IMG/VR virus record: IMGVR_UViG_3300036045_000039
Span: 1-36,875 of that record
Reading direction: 5' to 3' (one strand)
DNA length: 36,875 nt
Source of the DNA: a virus
Shown here: piece after piece, positions 1-36,870 of the stretch
Layout of the letters: the number at the start of each line of letters is the position of its first letter
Position numbering within the stretch: position 1 is the first letter of the stretch
Notes under the pieces: generated by a model
What the model was told of the DNA's origin: nothing
Databases searched by the model: none
Seen by the model: only the letters and a program-made list of their open reading frames with translations
Translations under genes and position numbers: made by a program

Positions 1-297
1 CCCGTAGGCGCTGCCCTGGGCCGCGCCTACGGGGATTGGGATGCGCCGCAGCAGCCGATCAGCCGTCCAGCGGCGACGTATGGGACGCTGCCGGAGCCGA
101 ACGGCAAGAGGAAGGCTGCGCCGGATCGCAGCCTCCTTGCCGGGCAACTGGACATGATGTGGACGGGGGTCAAGGAAATCCGCCTGAGCGATTTATCCAA
201 GCCCGCAGAAGAGCGGCAAATCTCGATTGAGTATGTCGAGGACTTCATCGCCAAACTCCGCAAGCTGACTATTAGTCGGCTGGAAGCGGGGGCGTGA
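1..297 (+). CDS. Hypothetical protein, C-terminal part (cut by window edge)
   Basis: Frame 1 is open from the first base to a TGA at 295-297 and gives 98 residues with no start codon that must be used, so the gene begins outside the window. The visible part is proline/glycine-rich at first (residues 1-50) and then a charged, probably helical tail that ends KLTISRLEAGA. I do not recognise a family. Its stop overlaps the next start (TGATG), which indicates translational coupling and membership in the same early-type operon. Function unknown. Confidence 0.65.
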   Translation, partial: PVGAALGRAYGDWDAPQQPISRPAATYGTLPEPNGKRKAAPDRSLLAGQLDMMWTGVKEIRLSDLSKPAEERQISIEYVEDFIAKLRKLTISRLEAGA

Positions 298-557
298 TGA
301 CCACCCTGACAACGGCGGAGCGCGAGTCGCTCCGCACCTTCCTTTCCAACCTGCGCCAAGCGAGTTTCCTGCTGGAGTGGCGATTGGAAATAAGCGAGGA
401 AAAGTACGACCCGGAATTCGAGCCACGCCGGATGAGCATGGAACGACTGGAGCGCCGGGTACTCAACCTGGTTCAGCAGCACGGCGATGATTTCCGGTTG
501 CTGCTGCGGTTGGTCGAGGCGGCGGGGGTAGAGGAAGGGGAGGACGACCATGATTGA
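297..557 (+). CDS. Hypothetical small protein
   Basis: Eighty-six residues, mostly helical and highly charged (many Arg and Glu), with an acidic C-terminus (EEGEDDHD). The ATG at 297 overlaps the preceding TGA; a GTG three bases earlier is possible but less likely. The end overlaps the next gene by 8 bases. No recognised domain. The composition and position suggest a small accessory phage protein, perhaps protein-binding, but that is only inference. Confidence 0.6.
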   Translation: MTTLTTAERESLRTFLSNLRQASFLLEWRLEISEEKYDPEFEPRRMSMERLERRVLNLVQQHGDDFRLLLRLVEAAGVEEGEDDHD

Positions 558-1065
558 TTTCACATTCACGCCGACCTCGGCGGAGCCGCACGCGATCCCG
601 GTGCCGTTTTTCGAGGAGGCGCGGGCCAAATTTGCGCCGTACTACGCGGTGGATGGCAAGCGGCTCGACCTCGAAAAAGCGAAGGATGCCGTGCGGCAGG
701 AACTCAGCAAGTTGGGGGCGGGCAACATCCACTTTATCGAAGGCATCTACGGCAGGGGCGACTCGCGGCGGCACGGCTACCAGGTGGAGTTCATGGTCGG
801 CAAGGCGCAGGGGCGGATGACCTGCGCCGGACTGCCGCTGAAGTACGATGAAACCCCGCTCAAGGTGCTACGGGTCAAGGTGCAGGCGCTGCTCAACCTA
901 CGGGATCAACTGAAGGCCGCCGTCACCGCCCAGGTGTTCGCGCCGGGGTTTCACCCGTTGGTCGGCACGCTGGTGCTGCCCAGCGGCAACACGGTCAGCG
1001 AGGCGGTGGTAGCGCAACTCAGCGCCGGGTTGCCGACTGATCGGCTGCTGACGGGGGGTGAGTGA
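550..1065 (+). CDS. Hypothetical protein, early region
   Basis: A 171-residue protein with a good Shine-Dalgarno sequence (GGGGAGG at 537-543, six bases before ATG). The N-terminal half is mixed and charged; residues about 55-100 (IHFIEGIYGRGDSRRHGYQVEF onward) look like a beta-rich domain, followed by a helix (LRVKVQALLNLRDQLKAA). I do not recognise the family. It shares its TGA with the next start, so it is translated with its neighbours. Function unknown. Confidence 0.65.
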   Translation: MIDFTFTPTSAEPHAIPVPFFEEARAKFAPYYAVDGKRLDLEKAKDAVRQELSKLGAGNIHFIEGIYGRGDSRRHGYQVEFMVGKAQGRMTCAGLPLKYDETPLKVLRVKVQALLNLRDQLKAAVTAQVFAPGFHPLVGTLVLPSGNTVSEAVVAQLSAGLPTDRLLTGGE

Positions 1066-1574
1066 TGCCCGCAACGATCAAGGCATTGACCGTCCGCGAA
1101 CCCTGGGCAACGGCTATCGCGATCAAGGCCAAAGCCTATGAAACCCGGAGTTGGAAAACGGACTATCGGGGCAAGTTGGTTATCCATGCGGGCAAACTCT
1201 GGGGGCGGGAGCAGGCTCACTCGCTCGCCAAACTAAGCAACCTCAACCCAAAATTACGAGCGGTAGCCGACGACATCCCGTCAAGGCTGGGTCGGGTGTT
1301 GTGCGTGGGTCAACTCATCCACTGTTATGAGATCACACGCCGTTTTCGGGACATCATCCTTGACCGCGAGCAAGCCTTTGGCGATTGGACGCTGGGACGC
1401 TTTGCCTGGCAGTTGCAAGTGACCTACGTGTTTAACCCGCCGATCCCGGCGGTGGGTAAGCTGGGCTTGTGGGAGTGGACGCCACCGCTGGAACTGGACG
1501 GCGTGAACCTGAGTCCACCGTCGCGCTGGATGCAAGTGCTGGGACTGGAGTGGGAAGACGATCAAAACGCATGA
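1065..1574 (+). CDS. ASCH-domain (PUA-like) protein
   Basis: 169 residues. The N-terminal segment has the classic ASCH layout: ALTVREPWATAI, then YETRSWKT, then a beta strand ending VIHAGK. Family members pair this opening (xLSIRQPWAxxI) with the conserved E-R-W/S segment. ASCH domains belong to the PUA-like fold and are thought to bind RNA or modified bases; some have ribonuclease or amidohydrolase activity. The middle (GRVLCVGQLIHCYEI) matches the later strands. In phages such genes sit among early accessory functions, as here. The ATG at 1065 overlaps the previous stop; GTG at 1062 is an alternative. Domain call is firm, biochemical activity unknown. Confidence 0.85.
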   Translation: MPATIKALTVREPWATAIAIKAKAYETRSWKTDYRGKLVIHAGKLWGREQAHSLAKLSNLNPKLRAVADDIPSRLGRVLCVGQLIHCYEITRRFRDIILDREQAFGDWTLGRFAWQLQVTYVFNPPIPAVGKLGLWEWTPPLELDGVNLSPPSRWMQVLGLEWEDDQNA

Positions 1575-1765
1575 AGTACATCTACCTCGGCGACCGGCTG
1601 ACCGACCCGGCGCTGCGCGGGATGCCCTGCGACCCGGTACTGAACGCGGCGGGCAAGTGCATCCGGGGGCGCAACGGTTCCATGCTGGTCGCCGGGTCGG
1701 ATGGTCGGCGGTGGGTGGTGATCGGCAGGCTGTTACGGAAGCAGAATAAGGAGAAAAAGGCATGA
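1571..1765 (+). CDS. Hypothetical small basic protein
   Basis: Sixty-four residues starting MKYIYLGDRLTD and ending in a lysine-rich tail (RKQNKEKKA). The ATG at 1571 lies just before the end of the ASCH gene (stop at 1572-1574, ATGA arrangement), and the end overlaps the next start in the same way. The pattern YLGDRLTDPALRG...PCDPVL...CIRGRNGSMLV...RWVVIGRLLR recurs in phage genomes as an unnamed protein. It could bind nucleic acid given its charge. Function unknown. Confidence 0.65.
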   Translation: MKYIYLGDRLTDPALRGMPCDPVLNAAGKCIRGRNGSMLVAGSDGRRWVVIGRLLRKQNKEKKA

Positions 1766-2097
1766 GTAAGAACACAAAGCCTAACCGCAGCCTTGAACGG
1801 TTCAAAGCGTGGCTGGCAGACCCGGTTTGTGGACTGAGCGCGGGCCACTTTGTTGATCCCAAGCGCTTCGCTGACAAGTGGGCTATCTACATAGGTGTTG
1901 ATTACACCCAAGAGCAGTTGTGTGTGATCGGCATCGTTGACGACGAGGCGCTTTTTGACGAGGTGCGTCTGATACTGCCCATCCTCTCTCGATTGGCAGT
2001 GAGCCAGGCACTCAAGACAATGCCGGATTGTATATCCTTTCCGGTTAACACGTTCCTCTGGGGGCCAGACCTATTCGAGAAGATCACGTTGCCATGA
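1762..2097 (+). CDS. Hypothetical protein
   Basis: 111 residues, with a good ribosome binding site (AAGGAG about 8 bases before ATG). Contains a basic N-terminus (MSKNTKPNRSLERFKAW) and an alternation of strands and helices, but no motif I recognise. Its base composition is clearly AT-richer than the neighbouring genes, which suggests later acquisition. Overlaps both neighbours by ATGA-type junctions, so it was integrated cleanly into the operon. Function unknown. Confidence 0.65.
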   Translation: MSKNTKPNRSLERFKAWLADPVCGLSAGHFVDPKRFADKWAIYIGVDYTQEQLCVIGIVDDEALFDEVRLILPILSRLAVSQALKTMPDCISFPVNTFLWGPDLFEKITLP

Positions 2098-2405
2098 CCC
2101 CGAACCACGCGGTTGAAACGCTGCTGATGTGGCTGCGCTCGCAGCAAGGACGCTACCTTGCGCCAACGGTGCTTGAGCCAGAGAACCAGCACTGGCCCAC
2201 GTTGTTATTCCCGGTCGTGGAAGCCTTTGACGAGCGGACTGGCAACACGATCATCTTCACCTGCGTGACCCACCGTAAGCATGTGGAGGCTGCGCTGAAG
2301 TGGGCAGCAGACTTTGCCGAATGGCTGGGAAGCTACTACGGCGATGAAGATGAACCGTTGGATGTGGATTATGCCGTCTGGTACGGCGAGGTGATACGAC
2401 CATGA
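2094..2405 (+). CDS. Hypothetical protein
   Basis: 103 residues, acidic at the C-terminus (GDEDEPLDVDYAVWYGEV). A helix (HAVETLLMWLRSQQ) is followed by beta segments and another helix (EAALKWAADFAEWLGSYY). Like the gene before it, it is somewhat AT-richer than the structural genes. It overlaps both neighbours at ATGA junctions. No known family recognised. Confidence 0.65.
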   Translation: MTPNHAVETLLMWLRSQQGRYLAPTVLEPENQHWPTLLFPVVEAFDERTGNTIIFTCVTHRKHVEAALKWAADFAEWLGSYYGDEDEPLDVDYAVWYGEVIRP

Positions 2406-3181
2406 ACGACAAACTTCAGCACGCCGCTGCTGATGCCTTGCGAGTCGCGCTGCGGCTGATGACCTTGCTCACTGACGACTGCACCCGGCTCCAGATTGCC
2501 GGGTCGCTGCGGCGGGGCAAGGCGGCGGTCGGCGATGTGGAATTGGTGGCGGCACCGCGCTACCGTCCGTCGCCCGCCGGTGAGCAAAATCTGTTGGACA
2601 TGCGGCTCCAGCAGATGATTGATCTGGGGCTGGTCAAGCCGCGCCTGAAGACCAACGGGGCGCTGCTGGCCTGGGGCGGTACCTGGTCGGCGCGGCAGAT
2701 GGCCGGGCAGGACGCACCGCCAGCGGGCAGCCGCTACAAGGCATTCTGGTATGACGGCCTGCCGGTGGACATCTTCATTGTGCTACCAGATCGGCAGTGG
2801 GGGCCAACGCTACTGCTCCGCACCGGGCCGGGTGATGCGAATCAGGTGCTGATGACGGAGCGTGGTCGCCTCACTCGCAACGGCGACCGGGGCATTTGCC
2901 CGCCGGAGGTTAAATGGATTGACGCGGCGCTGTACCGGGAGGGGGCGCTGCTGCATACCCCTGATGAGCGCAGTGTATTCGCCGCGTGTGGTCTGCCGTA
3001 CATCGAGCCGCATGATCGGGACGCGGGGACGTATCATCAACTGGCGTATGCCGAAAAAGCGAATTGGACGCTCAAGACTCGCTATGCTGAAACCGTGTGG
3101 GAGGTTGAGCCGGGGCAATGCACGCTGCCGCCGTTGCCGCCCGTGCTGGAGGTGCCGGAGGAACAGCCCCGGTTGTTTTGA
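2402..3181 (+). CDS. Family-X-like DNA polymerase / nucleotidyltransferase
   Basis: 259 residues resembling the palm and thumb of family X polymerases (Pol beta, PolX) without the N-terminal 8-kDa domain. Residues 34-40 are GSLRRGK and 44-49 GDVELV, matching the nucleotidyltransferase signature G-S-x-R-R-G-K...G-D-[ILV]-[DE]. The metal ligands would be Asp45 and Glu47, with a third acidic residue at Asp123 in LPVDIFIV. The segment QWGPTLLLRTGP and the C-terminal VFAACGLPYIEPHDRD match the thumb and the usual ending of PolX proteins. The second carboxylate is Glu rather than Asp. A role in gap filling, end repair or untemplated addition is expected from the family. It is the last gene of the left cluster. 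Confidence 0.8.
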   Translation: MNDKLQHAAADALRVALRLMTLLTDDCTRLQIAGSLRRGKAAVGDVELVAAPRYRPSPAGEQNLLDMRLQQMIDLGLVKPRLKTNGALLAWGGTWSARQMAGQDAPPAGSRYKAFWYDGLPVDIFIVLPDRQWGPTLLLRTGPGDANQVLMTERGRLTRNGDRGICPPEVKWIDAALYREGALLHTPDERSVFAACGLPYIEPHDRDAGTYHQLAYAEKANWTLKTRYAETVWEVEPGQCTLPPLPPVLEVPEEQPRLF

Positions 3182-3497
3182 GGCGATTGACACTCTGCCA
3201 GATTTCGCTTATCCTGAGCGCACATGGATGTTGGGTATCCCTTCCACCATGTTGCTACCCGGTGATCGCGGGGAAGCCCGGCAGGCTCCAGGCCTGTGCT
3301 GCGTGACAGCACCGATCACCTTGCAACTTGCTTCGAAACCCAACTGTAGCCCGCGCCAGATGCGTGCGGGATAGGGACTGCGACCGATAACGCAAAGGCA
3401 GGCGGGAGCCACAGAACGCTGCGGATCAGATACGTACTGTCGGCGATTTGATCTTAAGGGGTTGCGCCAGCGACCGGGAACGTAGACATTCCCGGAC

Positions 3498-3542
3498 ACA
3501 CCGCCTCGATGGGCCTTGAAATCCATCGAGGCGGTGTCGTTT
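3498..3542 (+). terminator. 15-bp hairpin, terminator-like
   Basis: A perfect 15-bp stem (3498-3512 with 3523-3537) has a 10-base loop GCCTTGAAAT and is followed by CGTTTAT, a weak U tract. Its architecture, and much of its sequence, recurs at 4096-4133 with the loop inverted. It may terminate transcripts entering from the polymerase gene, or be the last domain of the RNA candidate. Confidence 0.5.
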
Positions 3543-3553
3543 ATACCGCCTGC

Positions 3554-3577
3554 AAACCCCCTGAAAGTGGGGGTTTT
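3554..3577 (+). terminator. Intrinsic terminator
   Basis: An 8-bp stem AAACCCCC/GGGGGTTT (3554-3561 with 3569-3576) and 7-base loop, with the 3' side running into TTTTG. This is a compact rho-independent terminator that closes the left transcription unit before the promoter candidate of the 3644 gene. Confidence 0.6.
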
Positions 3578-3582
3578 GCCGC

Positions 3583-3611
3583 TTGCTGCGTCCCCGAACC
3601 AGAGGTACTGT
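3583..3611 (+). promoter_or_regulatory. Weak sigma-70-like promoter candidate
   Basis: TTGCTG (3583-3588) and TACTGT (3606-3611) are separated by 17 bases, 33 bases before the start codon at 3644. Each hexamer matches consensus at only three positions, so the support is mainly its location just after a terminator and before a solitary gene. Confidence 0.25.
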
Positions 3612-3643
3612 GTGACTGTAATCAGCTACCGGAGAAAACGACC

Positions 3644-3946
3644 ATGACCAGCACAATAGCCCCCCAACACATGACCCTGACCCAACTCCAAAACGAGTAC
3701 CAGGCCCGCTTTGGCATTCAGGGCGCAGTCATATGGGATATGACCTCCGCCGATCTGATCGACGGTCTGACCAACCCGGCCCACATCCCGCTCCGCAGCC
3801 GCCCGCGCCGCCAGGCAATCGAAGTGGGCGACCGAGTCCACGACCAGTACGGGGAGACCAGCACGGTGGTGAGCATTGGCGCTCGCGGCATCGTGACGAC
3901 CAGCGGGCGCTACCACTCCGCCAATCTGCGACGGGTCAACGCATAA
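3644..3946 (+). CDS. Hypothetical 100-residue protein, SH3/KOW-like tail
   Basis: Starts MTSTIAPQHM after a good ribosome binding site (CGGAGA). The N-terminal half has a helix (LTQLQNEYQARFGI) and the phrase ADLIDGLTNPAHI. The C-terminal 45 residues (VGDRVHDQYGETSTVVSIG, then IVTTSGRYHSANLRRV) look like a small beta barrel of KOW/SH3 type, a fold that often binds nucleic acid; this is a pattern judgement. The gene stands alone between two hairpin-rich non-coding regions and its stop codon directly abuts the 5' strand of the next RNA candidate. A DNA- or RNA-binding role would fit, but function is unknown. Confidence 0.65.
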   Translation: MTSTIAPQHMTLTQLQNEYQARFGIQGAVIWDMTSADLIDGLTNPAHIPLRSRPRRQAIEVGDRVHDQYGETSTVVSIGARGIVTTSGRYHSANLRRVNA

Positions 3947-4083
3947 TTTGATGCACCGCAACCCCCGCTGCCGACTTTGCTATGTTGATGGACAGGCAAA
4001 GCGATCACGCGGAGGTGTCTTATGAAGCAGTAGATGGCGATCCCTGAACGGTGCGCGTAGAGGGGTCGGCGGACTGCATCAAA
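3947..4083 (+). ncRNA. Candidate structured RNA with 9-bp closing helix
   Basis: Starting at the first base after the stop at 3946, TTTGATGCA (3947-3955) pairs perfectly with TGCATCAAA (4075-4083). Nested inside is CTGCCGAC (3968-3975) with GTCGGCGG (4065-4072), 8 bp with one wobble. Deeper helices are TTTGC/GCAAA (3976-3980 with 3996-4000) and ACGCG/CGCGT (4007-4011 with 4054-4058). A terminator hairpin follows 12 bases later (4096-4140). A closed multi-helix domain followed by a terminator is the layout of a cis-regulatory leader or small RNA. It also contains a three-codon reading frame at 4022. No known riboswitch class is recognised. Confidence 0.45.
4022..4033 (+). CDS. Three-codon minigene (Met-Lys-Gln-stop) candidate
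   Basis: ATG AAG CAG TAG is preceded by GGAGG at 4011-4015 with an ideal six-base spacer. The first base of this GGAGG pairs in the ACGCG/CGCGT helix, so folding could modulate ribosome entry. Minigenes of this size occur in phages (for example lambda bar minigenes, which deplete peptidyl-tRNA), and short leader ORFs regulate downstream hairpins. Whether it is translated is unknown. Confidence 0.3.
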   Translation: MKQ

Positions 4084-4095
4084 CGACCTCTCATT

Positions 4096-4140
4096 CACCG
4101 CCCGCATGGATTTCAGGCTCCATGCGGGCGGTGTTGTTTT
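4096..4140 (+). terminator. 14-bp terminator hairpin, inverted-loop partner of 3498-3537
   Basis: A perfect 14-bp stem (4096-4109 with 4120-4133), a 10-base loop ATTTCAGGCT and a following TTGTTTT. The stem shares CACCGCC...TGG with the hairpin at 3498 but differs by compensatory changes in the middle. The loop resembles the reverse complement of the other loop. This is a likely intrinsic terminator of the RNA candidate at 3947-4083. Confidence 0.65.
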
Positions 4141-4194
4141 GCCGACAAGCCCCGGCGGGCGGGCGGGGTAGCCTGAGAGGGAGGCAGGCACAGG

Positions 4195-4203
4195 ATTGGA
4201 GAC
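4195..4203 (+). promoter_or_regulatory. ATTGGAGAC start-associated box
   Basis: This Shine-Dalgarno-containing nonamer lies five bases before the start at 4209. The identical nonamer occurs on the minus strand before the gene starting at 34721, and a one-mismatch copy occurs before the gene starting at 33780. All three have a GC-rich hairpin upstream. See the findings. Confidence 0.5.
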
Positions 4204-4208
4204 CGGGT

Positions 4209-4463
4209 ATGGCAACACTTCCTAATCCAGATCGGCAGCAGGTTCACGCGCAACTCATGCAGCGGCTTTCCGATATGGGCGAAGCGGTGGGCATGACCAA
4301 AAGCGACTTGCGCGGGGCAATCAACGCGGCGGATGACTGGCTGGATTCCAACATGGCGGCCTACAACCTGGCGCTGCCCTTGCTGGTACGGAACCTTCTC
4401 ACGGCACGGTTGAAAGCCCTGATCCTGGTGCTGCTCATCCTACGCCGATTTGAGGTGCTGTGA
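4209..4463 (+). CDS. Hypothetical phage protein (small, upstream of structural genes)
   Basis: 84 residues starting MATLPNPDRQQ. The pattern (PNPDR...LM...S.....G.TKSDLRGAINAADDWLDSN...YN.ALP) recurs as an unnamed small protein in phage structural regions. It is followed by a hydrophobic helix (LKALILVLLILRRF). It has the ATTGGAGAC ribosome binding box and opens the structural module that runs to 8021. Its stop overlaps the next ATG. Function unknown, probably virion- or assembly-associated by position. Confidence 0.65.
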   Translation: MATLPNPDRQQVHAQLMQRLSDMGEAVGMTKSDLRGAINAADDWLDSNMAAYNLALPLLVRNLLTARLKALILVLLILRRFEVL

Positions 4464-8813: not shown

Positions 8814-8882
8814 AACAAGCCCGCATCAAATTATGCGTATCTTAATAGAGACGACCGTTTTAGGTAGCGGACGGTGTAGACC

Positions 8883-14802: not shown

Positions 14803-15447
14803 ATGACTGACCTCGCTCCGCAACCTACGCCCACGCCGGAACCACCGGCCACCCCGCCGGGCAACACGGGGGATGCTCCACCGGGGGCGCAATTCAACCA
14901 GGAACAAGTTGACCGCATGATCGGCGACCGCCTCAAACGGGCGGAAGGCACGTGGATGAAGAAGCTGCTGGAAGGATTAGGGGTGGATAGCCTCGACAGC
15001 CTGAAAGCGCGACTGACCCCGACCGCGCCTGCGCCGGATGCGGGAGCCGAACTCCAGCAGTTGAACGAACGGTTGCAGGCTGCCGAAACCAAAGCGGGTG
15101 AAGCCGAGCAACGCCTGACCGCCCTGCAACAGGAGCGCCGCACCGAAAAGCGGAACGGCATCCTGAGCAAGGCGCTGGCGGAGGCCCGTGCCACCGACCC
15201 GGAAAGCCTGCTGATCCTGCTCCACGCCAAACACGGGGAGCAGGTCGGCAAGGTTTTTGGTGCCGATGACAGCGCCGACCCCGACCAACTCAAGCAGTTG
15301 GTCGAGACGGCGCGGGCCGGGTTCAAAGGCTTCTTCGGCAGCGCCTGGCCAGGGGTGCCATCCAACGCAGGCGGGCGGACGCCGAACCCGGAAGGGCAGG
15401 CGCGGACGGCAGCCGCCAGAACCAATCAGAAAATCATTCGAGGATAG
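14803..15447 (+). CDS. Capsid scaffolding protein (putative)
   Basis: 214 residues. A proline-rich start (QPTPTPEPPATPP) is followed by a helix with QFNQEQVDRMIGDRLKRAE and a coiled coil at about 85-125 (LQQLNERLQAAETKAGEAEQRLTALQQERR). The end is Gly/Ala/Arg-rich (TAAARTNQKIIRG). This arrangement, and especially the F-[NT]-Q-[ED]-[EQ]-V-[DN]-x-[IM]-[IV] opening, is typical of phage scaffolds placed just before decoration and capsid genes. Scaffolds guide capsid shell assembly and then leave. It follows the antisense gene by about 136 bases. Confidence 0.8.
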   Translation: MTDLAPQPTPTPEPPATPPGNTGDAPPGAQFNQEQVDRMIGDRLKRAEGTWMKKLLEGLGVDSLDSLKARLTPTAPAPDAGAELQQLNERLQAAETKAGEAEQRLTALQQERRTEKRNGILSKALAEARATDPESLLILLHAKHGEQVGKVFGADDSADPDQLKQLVETARAGFKGFFGSAWPGVPSNAGGRTPNPEGQARTAAARTNQKIIRG

Positions 15448-20286: not shown

Positions 20287-20556
20287 ATGGTGCGGGATTA
20301 CGTGGCGCGAGAAAATGCCTATGACCCGGAGGCGGTCATGCTGACGCGCCCCAGGCTGGTTTTGCACTACGCGCCGCACCTGGTACTGCGCGGGGCATTG
20401 GAGTATGAGCGCACCCAGCAGCGCCCGCGCCCGGAGGTGCTGGCCGAAGAAGATGAACATTGGCGCGAGGACATTGACACCATGCTCGACTGGTTGAAGT
20501 TCCACCGAGACTTCGGCAAACGCCCGCCTATCATCCGTGATGACCCGCCCGCCTGA
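20257..20556 (+). CDS. Tail assembly chaperone, -1 frame extension (lambda T-part analogue)
   Basis: After the slip the reading frame continues KREAAVEEVDRMVRDYVAREN and ends with PPIIRDDPPA, adding 99 residues to give a fusion of about 239. An internal ATG at 20287 exists, but no convincing ribosome site precedes it, so frameshifting is the better explanation. The added part is helical (YDPEAVMLTRPRLVLHYAPHL, WREDIDTMLDWLKFHRDF). In other phages the long form binds both the tape measure and the tube subunits. The stop codon sits in the loop of the terminator at 20543-20577. Confidence 0.72.
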   Translation, partial: REAAVEEVDRMVRDYVARENAYDPEAVMLTRPRLVLHYAPHLVLRGALEYERTQQRPRPEVLAEEDEHWREDIDTMLDWLKFHRDFGKRPPIIRDDPPA

Positions 20557-20577
20557 CAAGCGGGCGGGTGCTTTTTT
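20543..20577 (+). terminator. Strong intrinsic terminator after the chaperone gene
   Basis: A perfect 10-bp stem ACCCGCCCGC/GCGGGCGGGT (20543-20552 with 20560-20569), a seven-base loop and a following GCTTTTTT. The stop codon of the long chaperone (20554-20556) lies in the loop. It would end or attenuate late transcription before the tape measure gene. Confidence 0.85.
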
Positions 20578-20596
20578 GGTAGGGTGATAGACAGTG

Positions 20597-21100
20597 CTAG
20601 TTGTCTTCGTCCAGCGCAACATCCGGGCGCAGGCGGTTCCGTAGCAGGGTGTCCTTGCGGGTGGCAGTGATTTCGTCGGCGGGAACCAGCGGGACTTGTC
20701 GCTCGGTCAGACGGCGAAGTTCGCGCAAGGCGGCGGTATCGGCAGTCGGCCCATCTGTGATAGGCATTGGTTCAGCCGCGCGGGTGTTGCGCTCAATGCG
20801 GGCAAGGAAGATGGTCTGCCGAACCAATTGCTCGGCATTGTTGATCTGGATGCGAATGACTTCGGCGGTGGCCTGAAGGAAAAGTCCCAAAACAATGCCT
20901 GTAACAATTATTCCAAAACCCGCTCCGCGCTGGGCATCTGATGTGGGGACAATCTCGGCAGTGCCGTTAATGAAGTCATATTCAATTGAGGGTGAGGTTG
21001 CGGTTATAACACCTCCAGCGATGCCGATTAGAAAACTGAGAAATGCTATGACACGGAAAGCCCAAATCAATACACGGAGTACCGGATACTTTACTGTCAT
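20597..21100 (-). CDS. Antisense two-helix membrane protein (moron candidate)
   Basis: 167 residues, opposite to the tail operon. Two hydrophobic segments are visible at about 8-33 (LRVLIWAFRVIAFLSFLIGIAGGV) and 60-80 (GFGIIVTGIVLGLFLQATAEV). They are followed by a polar cytoplasmic-looking tail of about 85 residues with LARIERNTRAAEP and LRELRRLTERQ. A GGAG precedes the ATG by eight bases. No family is recognised. A membrane protein inserted between chaperone and tape measure genes, on the other strand, fits a moron acting in the host cell, for example superinfection exclusion, but that is inference. The 5' half is AT-richer than its neighbours. Confidence 0.7.
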   Translation of the reverse strand: MTVKYPVLRVLIWAFRVIAFLSFLIGIAGGVITATSPSIEYDFINGTAEIVPTSDAQRGAGFGIIVTGIVLGLFLQATAEVIRIQINNAEQLVRQTIFLARIERNTRAAEPMPITDGPTADTAALRELRRLTERQVPLVPADEITATRKDTLLRNRLRPDVALDEDN

Positions 21101-21151
21101 GATGGCAACTCCAAACCCGTTTTCTATAGGATAACACAGCAGTCAAACATT

Positions 21152-23440
21152 ATGGCTCAAAATCGCGTTGTCGAGACAATCCTTGCTTTCAAGGTTGATG
21201 AACCTAATGTTCAGCGTGCCAATTCGGCAGTTGCTGAATTGAGAACCACCATTGAGCGTCTGAAAAGCAAAGAATCTGTTGAGCCGATCAAAATCAATCC
21301 CAACCAAGTGCGTGTTGTCAGCAAAGCAATGCAGGCTCTACAAGCTGATGTTGAGCGACTAAAGAAAGGCACGCCAATTGAATTGGTGAAACCGACAACC
21401 TCAGTTTCTGGAAATAGTGCCATCAGCAGACAAGGCGGGGGTAGTGATTTCATTGGGAAAACTATTTTAGACAGTGTCCGGAGTGCAACCAGTAGCATCC
21501 CTATTCTTGGCGACGCTGTTCAAAATTTAGGAGTAGGTACTGAACAAGCAATTGGCAGAATTGCGACCTCAAGTCCGCTGGCTGTAGCAGCGATAGTTGC
21601 TGTTGGGGCGGGTTTTGCGCTGCTTGACCGCCAGTTACAAGATACCAAAAATACCCTAAATGCAGCCGTTAGTGCTAACGAAGCCTACTACGACCTGATC
21701 GGCAGTGCTGCGACCGAAGAAAAGGTTATTGAACGCCGCGAGGAGCTTAATCGCAGATTGGCGGCCCAACAGGAAGAGTTATCTGTCATTGAAGCCTCTT
21801 TTGCCTCCGCATTTGAAGGTGCTGTGAAATCTTTTGGAGAGGTTGGCGGGCGAGCAGCCTTTGCTATATCTAATGCGCTTAGTACGGATGACGAGGCAAC
21901 TGCCCGCGCAGATGAACTTCGCAATTCGGTAAGGGACGCGCAGGCCGAAATTGATGCTTTAAGTAGAGGGTTGGAAAATGGGGCTTTTGCTGCTGCGACG
22001 GCAGCCGAAGCGGAACGGAAATTGGCCGAAGCCCGCGCTCGGCAGGCTGTCGGCTTCAACCAGGATTTCTTGAACGCTGAACTCGAGGCCGGAAACCTTG
22101 CGGTGAGAGCATCCGTTGAGGCAGTTGAGGAACGTATTGCTGCCCTTCAACGAGAACAAACGGTACTGGCTGAGTATGCCGGGTATGTTCAACGCCAGAT
22201 TGATAATGCTGGAGATGATGTTGCGGTTCGGGAAGCGTTGCAAGCGCAACTGGACGGCATTAACCGCAGCATTGAAACAGCCACCAATACGCTGACTTTG
22301 TTCAATCGTGATGGCCTGCTCGAAACCGTCCGCGCCGCTGAGGCGGCAAAAGAGGCACTCGAAGCCGAGCAGCGCGTCCGCGAGGAGTCGATCAACCTGG
22401 TGCGCCAGTATGAGCAGGATAAAGCCCGCATTGAGCAGCAGGCCGCCGAACGGGAAATCGCGCTGGCGCAGCAACTGAGCGATCAGCAATTGGCGATTGC
22501 CGAACGCGCCGCCGAGCAGGAAGCCGACCTGCTGGAGAAGCTGGTGCAGGCGCGGGATGACCTCGCCGCCGACCTCGCCACTGATCTGGCGGATGCGGCG
22601 GCCCAGGCGCAGGAGGACGCGCTCAATCGGCAGATTGACTTCCAGCGGCAGGAGGTCGAGAGCGCCATCCAGCACCAGGCCGACCTGGAGCGCATCCGGC
22701 GCAGCGGCGAGGAGCGCGAGTTTGAACTGGCGCTCAACCGTGACTTCGCCGGGTTGGCGCGGTCGCGGCGGCAGACGGCCAGCGACCTGACCAACGCCAA
22801 CCAGCAGTTTGGCGAAGACCGGGCCGCCCGCGCACGGGCGTTCCAGCAGCAGAACGAAGATGCCGCCCGGCAATACGACCTGGAACGCAACCAGCGCATT
22901 GCCCGCTTCCAGCAGGACGTGGTGGATGCCGAGGTCAATTACCAACGAGAACGAACGCAGATTGCCCAGCAGCGACAGCGCAATCTGCAGGAAGCGCAGA
23001 CGGCCTACAACCGTGAACTCCTGCAACTGCGGCAGAAGCTGACCGCCGAACTGGCGCAGCGGCAGCAGGCGGTGGTGGCTGAACTGCGGCTGGTACAGCA
23101 GGGGACAGCGGCGAAACTGGCGCTGGAGCAGCAGTACTACGCGCAGTCACAGCGCCTGATCCAGCAGGCCATCGGCAACCTGGGCGGCAGCAGCGGGCAA
23201 GCGGGCAATGCCTCCGGCTTCCTCCCTTCGGCTACCCGCAGCAGCGGCCTGAGCAATCTGCGTCCGTTACCGGGGCGCGGTAGCCAGCAAACGGCCTCCG
23301 CCGCGCCGGGCGGGATCGTGCTGAACCTGAACATCCCGATCACCACCGGGGCCAGCGCCGACCAGATTCGCGGGCTGGTGCCAGCGATCCAGCAGACGGT
23401 GCGGACGGAAGTCGCCGACCTGTTCGGCGTGAGCGCATAA
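21152..23440 (+). CDS. Tape measure protein
   Basis: 762 residues. After an N-terminal region with short helices comes a hydrophobic segment at about 147-162 (LAVAAIVAVGAGFALL). Then follow long coiled coils very rich in Gln, Ala, Arg and Glu (for example QYEQDKARIEQQAAEREIALAQQ and similar stretches to about residue 670). The C-terminus is Gly/Ser-rich and then structured (IVLNLNIPITTGASADQIRG). This composition, and a place after the G/GT chaperones, identify the tape measure. At 1.5 angstrom per residue it predicts a tail near 110 nm. No good ribosome binding site precedes the ATG. Base composition changes sharply near 22310, discussed in findings. Confidence 0.85.
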   Translation: MAQNRVVETILAFKVDEPNVQRANSAVAELRTTIERLKSKESVEPIKINPNQVRVVSKAMQALQADVERLKKGTPIELVKPTTSVSGNSAISRQGGGSDFIGKTILDSVRSATSSIPILGDAVQNLGVGTEQAIGRIATSSPLAVAAIVAVGAGFALLDRQLQDTKNTLNAAVSANEAYYDLIGSAATEEKVIERREELNRRLAAQQEELSVIEASFASAFEGAVKSFGEVGGRAAFAISNALSTDDEATARADELRNSVRDAQAEIDALSRGLENGAFAAATAAEAERKLAEARARQAVGFNQDFLNAELEAGNLAVRASVEAVEERIAALQREQTVLAEYAGYVQRQIDNAGDDVAVREALQAQLDGINRSIETATNTLTLFNRDGLLETVRAAEAAKEALEAEQRVREESINLVRQYEQDKARIEQQAAEREIALAQQLSDQQLAIAERAAEQEADLLEKLVQARDDLAADLATDLADAAAQAQEDALNRQIDFQRQEVESAIQHQADLERIRRSGEEREFELALNRDFAGLARSRRQTASDLTNANQQFGEDRAARARAFQQQNEDAARQYDLERNQRIARFQQDVVDAEVNYQRERTQIAQQRQRNLQEAQTAYNRELLQLRQKLTAELAQRQQAVVAELRLVQQGTAAKLALEQQYYAQSQRLIQQAIGNLGGSSGQAGNASGFLPSATRSSGLSNLRPLPGRGSQQTASAAPGGIVLNLNIPITTGASADQIRGLVPAIQQTVRTEVADLFGVSA

Positions 23441-23458
23441 AAGTATGCAGGGGGCGTG

Positions 23459-31157: not shown

Positions 31158-32500
31158 TGACCATGCCGAATTGCCTGGGCGCAAATGTGCTGGATACCGC
31201 GCTGGTGGACGGCGCTCCGGCCTGGGAGCGCATCCAGCAGGCGGACATGGCGGCGGTCACGATCCTCGACGGCAGCCACCCGGAACAGGCGCTGGCCTTC
31301 GCCGGGCGGCTGCGCCGGGAGCGCCCGCAGACGATGGTGCTGTATCGGCGCTACCGGGATGAGCTGCCGGATGCGACGCTGTGGGAGCGCCTGACCCCGG
31401 CGCAATTTGTGGAGCTATTCCGCCCGGCGCTGGAGATGGGGTGCTACGCCTGCACGCATTGCGAGGCGGCCCCGGATGAACTGACCCGGTTGGCAGATTT
31501 TGAGACGAAGGTGCTGGACATCACCGCGCCAAAAGGTTGGCGACTGGCGGTTTTCAAGATGTCCACCGGGTCGCCGGGCGGCTACCGGGGTGAACAGCCT
31601 GACCACTACGCATCATTTGATGCACTGTGGCGGTCAATGGCGGCAGCCAACCGCGACCCGCTGGGGCGCAATGAATTTCCGGCGGTGATCGCTGCACCGC
31701 ACGCCTACTTCCAGCAGCAAGGGTTGGGCGGCGGGATGCTGGATCGTCCGCCGGAAATCCACCGCCGGGCGGCTGAACTTGGGCTGGATACCCGCCTGAT
31801 CCCGATCCACATTGGCGAGACCGGATTGGTGTATGAACAGGCGGACGGCAGGCTCGACCCCAACGCGGGCTACCGCGATAAGAAAGTACGGCTTGACCCG
31901 ACCCGCTATGCCCGGATGGTCTACGACGTGGTGCGGACGCACTTCCTGCCGCGTGGATACATCCCGCACCTGTGGTCGCTGGGCGCGTCGGTCGGCGGGT
32001 GGATGAGCGGCAGCTTCGATACCCTGTGGGATGACCCGTTCTGGAAGGCACTGCAAGGGTTGTGCGCGAATGGCAGTCTGCGGCTGCCGACGTGGTACGG
32101 GCAGGGCGGGTCTATCCAGCAAGAGACCTGGCGGGCCTACTTCTGGGAGCGGGCCATCCCGGCGCGGTTGATCGGCAATAACCTGCGGGTGCGGGCGCTG
32201 CCGACAGTGGACGGCTCCATTGTCGCCACGCTGCCGCCGGAGGGGGTGGTCGGCCTGTATGTGCTACCCAGCGATTTGAAACCGGAGGATCGTCACCCGG
32301 CGACCATTGGCAGCGAGCGGGGCTTGTGGCAGCCGGTGTTCCTGAACAGCAGCGAACGCGGGTGGGTGTTTGGGCCGTACCTGCGGACGGCACCGCTGAT
32401 CGGGGGGCAGCCTACCCCGGCTAATCAGGGCGTGACGTTGCGGCTGACCCCGCAGGAGCGGGATGTGCTGGCGGCGGTGCTGGAAAAGCTGGCGAACTAA
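31157..32500 (+). CDS. Endolysin-like TIM-barrel hydrolase with SH3b domain
   Basis: 447 residues. Residues about 30-330 look like a glycoside hydrolase TIM barrel of GH-A type: strands ILDGS, MVLYRRY and VIAAPH, with Glu103 in THCEAAPD and Glu221 in IPIHIGETG as candidate acid/base and nucleophile. Residues about 338-412 form a bacterial SH3 domain (NNLRVRALPTVDGSIVATLPPEG...WQPVFLN...GWVFGPYLR) that often binds cell wall. It is last in the lysis cassette, so it probably degrades the host wall on release. There is no signal peptide, so release needs a holin. ATG 31157 or 31163 could be used. Not a standard N-acetylmuramidase. Confidence 0.7.
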   Translation: MTMPNCLGANVLDTALVDGAPAWERIQQADMAAVTILDGSHPEQALAFAGRLRRERPQTMVLYRRYRDELPDATLWERLTPAQFVELFRPALEMGCYACTHCEAAPDELTRLADFETKVLDITAPKGWRLAVFKMSTGSPGGYRGEQPDHYASFDALWRSMAAANRDPLGRNEFPAVIAAPHAYFQQQGLGGGMLDRPPEIHRRAAELGLDTRLIPIHIGETGLVYEQADGRLDPNAGYRDKKVRLDPTRYARMVYDVVRTHFLPRGYIPHLWSLGASVGGWMSGSFDTLWDDPFWKALQGLCANGSLRLPTWYGQGGSIQQETWRAYFWERAIPARLIGNNLRVRALPTVDGSIVATLPPEGVVGLYVLPSDLKPEDRHPATIGSERGLWQPVFLNSSERGWVFGPYLRTAPLIGGQPTPANQGVTLRLTPQERDVLAAVLEKLAN

Positions 32501-36031: not shown

Positions 36032-36400
36032 CTACAGGGAAACTACTACCTTCGGGTGCTTGAACCCCTCGACCTTTTGGGTCTTGAGTTCCCCTTTCGC
36101 CACGCGGCGCGAAATGGTGGACTGGTTGACCCCGTAGTGTTGGGCGGCATCCTTTTGGCTCATCAATCGATAGCCGCGCCCGGCAGGGGTGGCAGTGACG
36201 GCACCGCCCCGGCGCAACTGACCAATGACTTCCTCCGACTGAACCACCATATCCTCCAACCGACCGATATAGCTTTCCAGGCGGCTAATCTGCGCCCGGA
36301 GGATACGGTTGTCTTCGATCAACCGCGCACGTTCGTCCGGCGCGTTGACGGTGAGGGCGGTCGCCAGGGCTTTGTTGATGCGGGCGGCAGCGGCGGTCAT
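36032..36400 (-). CDS. HTH transcriptional regulator candidate
   Basis: 122 residues. The N-terminal 75 are helical, partly coiled coil (ERARLIEDNRILRAQISRLESYIGRLEDMVVQSEEVIGQL). The C-terminus has a helix-turn-helix (MSQKDAAQHYGVNQSTISRRVAKGELKTQKVEG) that resembles MerR/excisionase-type or HTH_17 domains, ending FKHPKVVVSL. The ATG at 36400 overlaps the upstream gene by four bases. It could regulate this cassette, for example via the leaders described. Confidence 0.7.
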   Translation of the reverse strand: MTAAAARINKALATALTVNAPDERARLIEDNRILRAQISRLESYIGRLEDMVVQSEEVIGQLRRGGAVTATPAGRGYRLMSQKDAAQHYGVNQSTISRRVAKGELKTQKVEGFKHPKVVVSL

Positions 36401-36870
36401 GAGCGGATGCCCTCCACTGCCACCTGCACGGCGTTGAGCGCCTGGGTGAAGATGCCGCCAGCCAGGAAGCCGGTGGTCACACAACCGCCACGCCCATCGA
36501 AGGCCACGCCCAGCTTTTCCGAAAGCGGGTGCCGGGCGACCGTGCCGAGCGCCCCGGCCAGCAGCGGAAAGGGATCGCCTTCCAGCGCGTCCGGCTCCGT
36601 GACCAGTTCTACCCGCATCCCCTCCATCCACTGAGTCGGCTGGGCTGCCAGCGGCAGGTCATCGACCGCCGTGATGGGCTGGGTGGCATCCGCGTCGAAG
36701 TAGATGGCATCGTGCAGGTGTTTGTGCGCGGCCTGGAGCGCGGTGAGCTGCCCCAGCGGGCAGGTCGTGGCGGCATCCGACCGGAGTAGATCGCCCAGCA
36801 GATGATGAATGCGGCGCAGCGCCGGGCCACTCACCAGCGTGCAGTTGGCAGGGGCGGCATCAAAGGGCAT
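36397..36870 (-). CDS. Hypothetical protein at window edge
   Basis: 157 residues from an ATG at 36868-36870 that lies five bases from the end, so an upstream start cannot be excluded. The protein has a helical N-terminus (GPALRRIHHLLGDLLRS, LTALQAAHKHLHDAIYFDADA) and a beta-rich end (MRVELVTEPDALEGDPFP, LGVAFDGRGGCVTTGFLAGGIF). No family recognised. Overlaps the HTH gene at its 3' end, so probably one operon. Confidence 0.55.
   Translation of the reverse strand: MPFDAAPANCTLVSGPALRRIHHLLGDLLRSDAATTCPLGQLTALQAAHKHLHDAIYFDADATQPITAVDDLPLAAQPTQWMEGMRVELVTEPDALEGDPFPLLAGALGTVARHPLSEKLGVAFDGRGGCVTTGFLAGGIFTQALNAVQVAVEGIRS

Follow-up and report, generated by a model that had tools for sequence, protein, structure and literature searches.

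Non-coding gaps ahead of the structural operon

The locus raises the question of what an extended, structured non-coding stretch does directly ahead of the virion genes of a tailed phage, where a sequence-only reading had proposed a riboswitch-like or leader RNA with an embedded minigene. The window, the whole stretch of DNA that was analysed, is the entire IMG/VR record IMGVR_UViG_3300036045_000039 (36,875 bases), an otherwise uncharacterised tailed phage. On the + strand, a small-gene cluster (294-3181) is followed by a non-coding gap of 462 nt (3182-3643), a gene for a 100-aa protein (3644-3946) with the Shine-Dalgarno sequence GGAG, a second non-coding gap of 262 nt (3947-4208), and the virion-structural/packaging operon, whose first gene encodes 84 aa (4209-4463) and which includes, from 4209 onward, genes for a LamG-type virion protein, a methyltransferase, the large terminase, the portal, and capsid and tail proteins. 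The median intergenic gap on this strand is 5 nt, and the 262-nt and 462-nt gaps are both outliers. The TAA stop codon of the 100-aa gene (3944-3946) abuts the element.

Codon usage analysis gave the 100-aa gene a positive score in its own frame and negative scores in the other frames, and also scored the gene at 4209 positive, as coding, while the opposite-strand ORF and the other ORFs across both gaps scored as non-coding. The 100-aa protein matched no PHROG or Pfam entry and no known family, its predicted structure (pLDDT 60) was too poor for use, and homology searches with the small genes flanking the element found no relatives. The gene that adjoins the structured boundary on its upstream side (2402-3181) encodes a DNA polymerase beta-like nucleotidyltransferase with Pfam matches to the palm and thumb.

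Our analysis favours, with moderate confidence, the explanation that the element is the structured 3' UTR of the transcript of the upstream gene (3644-3946) and that this transcript ends at a strong intrinsic terminator, which sets the upstream cluster apart from the structural operon at 4209. The non-coding gap, a fold that is predicted to be stable in isolation, and a directional terminator support this explanation directly, and its functional steps are inferred from sequence, predicted folding and motif statistics. The earlier description of a well-folded, non-coding + strand RNA with an intrinsic terminator just ahead of the structural operon was supported; a riboswitch or aptamer-like function for it was not. 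The alternatives considered below are each less likely, with the regulated leader the likeliest of them, the free small RNA next and the riboswitch last.

Predicted fold of the RNA body

The structured RNA body is predicted to occupy positions 3947-4083 of the + strand (137 nt; minimum free energy -60.4 kcal/mol), with a closing helix, P1, that encloses P2, P3 and P4. P1 can be read directly from the sequence as nine perfect base pairs between TTTGATGCA (3947-3955) and TGCATCAAA (4075-4083) and, as had been proposed, starts at the base after the stop codon. The nested helix of 8 bp is the P4 hairpin, in which CGATCCCT (4038-4045) pairs with AGGGGTCG (4061-4068) through one G-U pair and seven others at a pairing probability of 0.99, and the two smaller helices correspond to P2 and a weak P3 in the predicted fold.

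Compared with dinucleotide shuffles, the body without the terminator had a z of -4.4, with none of 200 shuffles folding as well, and the whole RNA including the terminator had a z of -5.6; the body without P1 reached only -2.6. The element had been picked from the whole genome, and its z is to be read against a genome-wide ranking, which was obtained in a two-step scan by composition-adjusted energy first and by shuffle z second. The body ranked 38th among 4,900 scanned windows by composition-adjusted energy, and about 45 of the 4,900 had a shuffle z equal to or below its own, at about 13 distinct places, many of them coding. The fold of the body is therefore unusual rather than exceptional, and suggestive, whereas the terminator is exceptional and its evidence solid. 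Locally, the genome folds most strongly at 15181-15317 (minus strand, z -8.4), within a coding region (14803-15447).

The predicted pairing depended on where the RNA begins. The pairing probability of P1 was about 0.9 only when the RNA began at 3947 and was 0.05-0.14 once the mRNA of the upstream gene was attached, whereas P4 and the terminator remained near 1 in every context, a pattern that fits a 3' UTR better than an independent aptamer. On a transcript that runs through the upstream gene, a terminating ribosome would cover the 5' strand of P1, and the GC-rich hairpins would protect the 3' end.

The stability of P1 in an RNA that starts near 3947, together with the compact fold (z -4.4) and the terminator, is also what would be expected of a free, trans-acting small RNA some 190 nt long, either transcribed from a promoter of its own or released from the mRNA by cleavage. 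This alternative is rather unlikely, as no sigma70-type promoter was found near 3947 or inside the element to start such an RNA, and the searches described below yielded neither a relative nor a known family.

Search for relatives and known RNA classes

The Rfam search gave nothing above threshold and hairpin-driven noise below it, and no riboswitch covariance model matched, in agreement with the earlier statement that no known RNA class is recognisable. A search for tRNA and tmRNA found none. With the region or the RNA as query, blastn against phage and plasmid records returned chance matches only, and no match was found to an exact 21-mer from the inner part of the element.

Relatives were reached via the terminase, with a best identity of 55-57%, and via the portal, with 48% at best. 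In the loci of these relatives, blastn of the element recovered pieces of chance length only, and a comparison of terminators across the relatives revealed no conserved boundary element. A covariance model derived from this one sequence had no match over the terminase- and portal-relative loci and 24 whole records, a result that proves little with so weak a model. Two further candidates were set aside: a search of viral contigs for P1 as a gapped pattern hit only unrelated, mostly AT-rich sequence, and a segment at 3964-3974 with 10 of 11 positions complementary to the start of the gene at 4209 was judged to be a chance match.

Terminator hairpins and the upstream structured gap

The intrinsic terminator extends to 4140, with a stem (4096-4110/4119-4133) of perfect pairing followed by the tail TTGTTTTG. 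It begins 12 nt after P1, as had been noted, and its stem is 15 bp long, not the 14 bp first given. A stable GC-rich hairpin followed by a T run, the hallmark of intrinsic termination, is present at 4096; the T-rich tail occurs on the + side only, and the hairpin alone has a z of -5.8 against shuffles. RNA polymerase arriving from upstream would accordingly stop near 4138. Another strong + strand terminator (20543-20570) lies ahead of a minus-strand gene of membrane type (20597-21100), which is found in a low-GC stretch (20543-21151) inside the tail gene cluster and has a moron-like look.

The element resembles the terminator-bounded 3' UTRs and intergenic insulators of phages in that it is non-coding, follows a stop codon, ends in a GC-rich hairpin with a T tail, and precedes an operon of another class. 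It differs from them in the unusually long structured stretch (137 nt) ahead of the terminator.

The gap at 3182-3643, for which no relatives were found, is at least as structured as the one at 3947-4208. It contains a sigma70-like, promoter-like sequence, TTGACA-17-TATCCT (3187-3215), a compact four-way junction fold (3261-3320, z -3.1), a terminator-like hairpin (3498-3537, with its tail to 3543, + strand) and a further hairpin near 3554-3578. Over 21 nt, the hairpin at 3498-3543 shares 81% identity with the terminator at 4096 in its 3' arm and tail. A pair of such similar hairpins, one after the other ahead of the late operon, would fit gated late transcription, by analogy with antitermination phages. 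The stretch from the terminator to 4209 yielded no consensus promoter, which counts against the 3' UTR and insulator reading, as it leaves the expression of the late operon unexplained; under that reading the operon would have to be reached via some other type of promoter or via read-through or antitermination.

Competing helix, minigene and possible regulation of the late operon

A second helix of 9 bp (4060-4068/4084-4092, + strand) competes with the main fold of the body, as it would replace P4, whose 3' strand is 4061-4068, and would form a pseudoknot with P1. Two helices of at least 9 bp occurred together in only 1.5% of shuffles. A fold that beats 200 of 200 shuffles, combined with the competing helix, hints at something more than a passive 3' UTR. 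When the competing helix was forced in the absence of P1, the structure was less favourable than the main fold by 7.8 kcal/mol, and the terminator hairpin was left intact. The competing helix ends at 4092 and the terminator begins at 4096, and no helix of at least 8 bp was found to take up the arms of the terminator stem; one 8-bp alternative (3995-4002 with 4136-4143) touches only the U tail. The element therefore lacks the mutually exclusive antiterminator and terminator by which riboswitches classically work.

This bears directly on the proposal of a riboswitch, or of a leader-peptide attenuator in which the MKQ minigene would serve as sensor. The minigene, ATG AAG CAG TAG (4022-4033, + strand), is preceded by GGAGG (4011-4015) at the favourable spacing that had been described, here 6 nt, and is directly followed by a second mini-ORF (4034-4060). 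In the earlier reading the first G of GGAGG joined a helix; it is indeed predicted to be paired, but so is essentially the entire Shine-Dalgarno sequence, which is buried in P2 in all contexts. The predicted structures thus offer no accessible ribosome-binding site, translation of MKQ is not favoured, and control via the minigene was not upheld. Recoding of the stop codon in the minigene frame was rejected, since several core genes end in TAG.

With its long closing helix, multi-branch body of three inner hairpins, downstream terminator and well-spaced Shine-Dalgarno sequence, the element does look like a riboswitch with a terminator expression platform, yet it has no antiterminator/terminator switch, no known conserved core and no relatives found. 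Together with the lack of an Rfam match, the loss of P1 in its natural upstream context, and the location of the P1 5' strand within a repeated DNA motif, these features make a riboswitch or attenuator very improbable.

A better account than a riboswitch, although itself unlikely, would be a regulated leader ahead of the late operon. According to this explanation, transcription would start upstream at the sigma70-like site (3187-3215), run first into the terminator at 3498 and then into that at 4096, and read through into the structural genes to an extent set by the structured RNA or by a phage factor. The promoter-like sequence, the twin hairpins in series ahead of the structural operon, the competition of P4 with the 4084-4092 strand, and the lack of a consensus promoter after the terminator are all consistent with it. 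On the other hand, such promoter matches are no commoner in the genome than in shuffles, the costly competing helix spares the terminator, on whose stem no antiterminator strand was found, and no antitermination factor was recognised in the phage.

Known systems of this kind provide only partial parallels. The lambda pR' leader (6S RNA) ends at tR' before the late genes, which are controlled by Q antitermination. The element is similar to it as a short transcript closed by a terminator just ahead of structural genes, but here no Q gene was recognised, no promoter lies at the expected place, and the RNA follows a coding gene. The put RNA of HK022, about 70 nt in two adjacent stem-loops downstream of early promoters, is likewise a nascent, structured RNA of a phage and lies upstream of terminators (PMC9378689), whereas the element consists of three hairpins inside a long closing helix and does not show the features of a put RNA.

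A bolder proposal is that the whole stretch 3182-4140, comprising both structured gaps and their two similar terminator hairpins, forms a gate to the late operon that is controlled by RNA: the choice between P4 and pairing with the 4084-4092 strand (pseudoknotted with P1) would decide read-through with no dedicated antitermination protein. We regard this as improbable. If either the leader or the gate were real, it would represent a rare, protein-free timing of late genes by a phage.

Repeated DNA motif at the stop codon

Besides its predicted pairing, the 5' strand of P1 is part of a repeated DNA motif. The near-palindrome CGCAT-AATTTG-ATGCA (3940-3955) overlaps both the stop codon and the P1 5' strand, which belongs to CGCATAATTTGATGC, a sequence with an exact copy at 8823-8837 on the minus strand and a copy matching at 14 of 15 positions at 31609-31623 on the + strand. 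The 15-nt motif CGCATMATTTGATGC occurs three times in this phage, whereas related phage loci totalling 2.07 Mb, some of them overlapping one another, contain no copy even with one mismatch allowed. Six occurrences of TTTGATGC were found in the genome, compared with 1.3 expected.

These observations suggest that the repeated motif is a candidate operator and that P1 can economically be read as a site in the DNA for a phage regulator; a DNA-binding regulator of the phage may act at this boundary via the near-palindrome, and the candidate DNA-binding proteins of the phage include the product of 36032-36631 on the minus strand. In its strict form, this proposal holds that P1 is not an RNA helix and consists instead of two inverted DNA half-sites (TTTGATGCA), with CGCAT-N6-ATGCR as the full site, which is compatible with the 3' UTR and terminator reading of the remainder. 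We consider the strict form unlikely, given that the copy at 4075 is a half-site only and that enrichment of the dyad alone is unexceptional among all 4+4 dyads. The full dyad is present at 3940-3955, 8822-8837, 23434-23449 and 31609-31624; the last lies inside a gene, and the first three are located at gene boundaries, that at 23434 being the end of the tape-measure gene. The element marks where the upstream genes of an orphan phage give way to its structural genes, and the terminators and the repeated motif provide two testable sites there.
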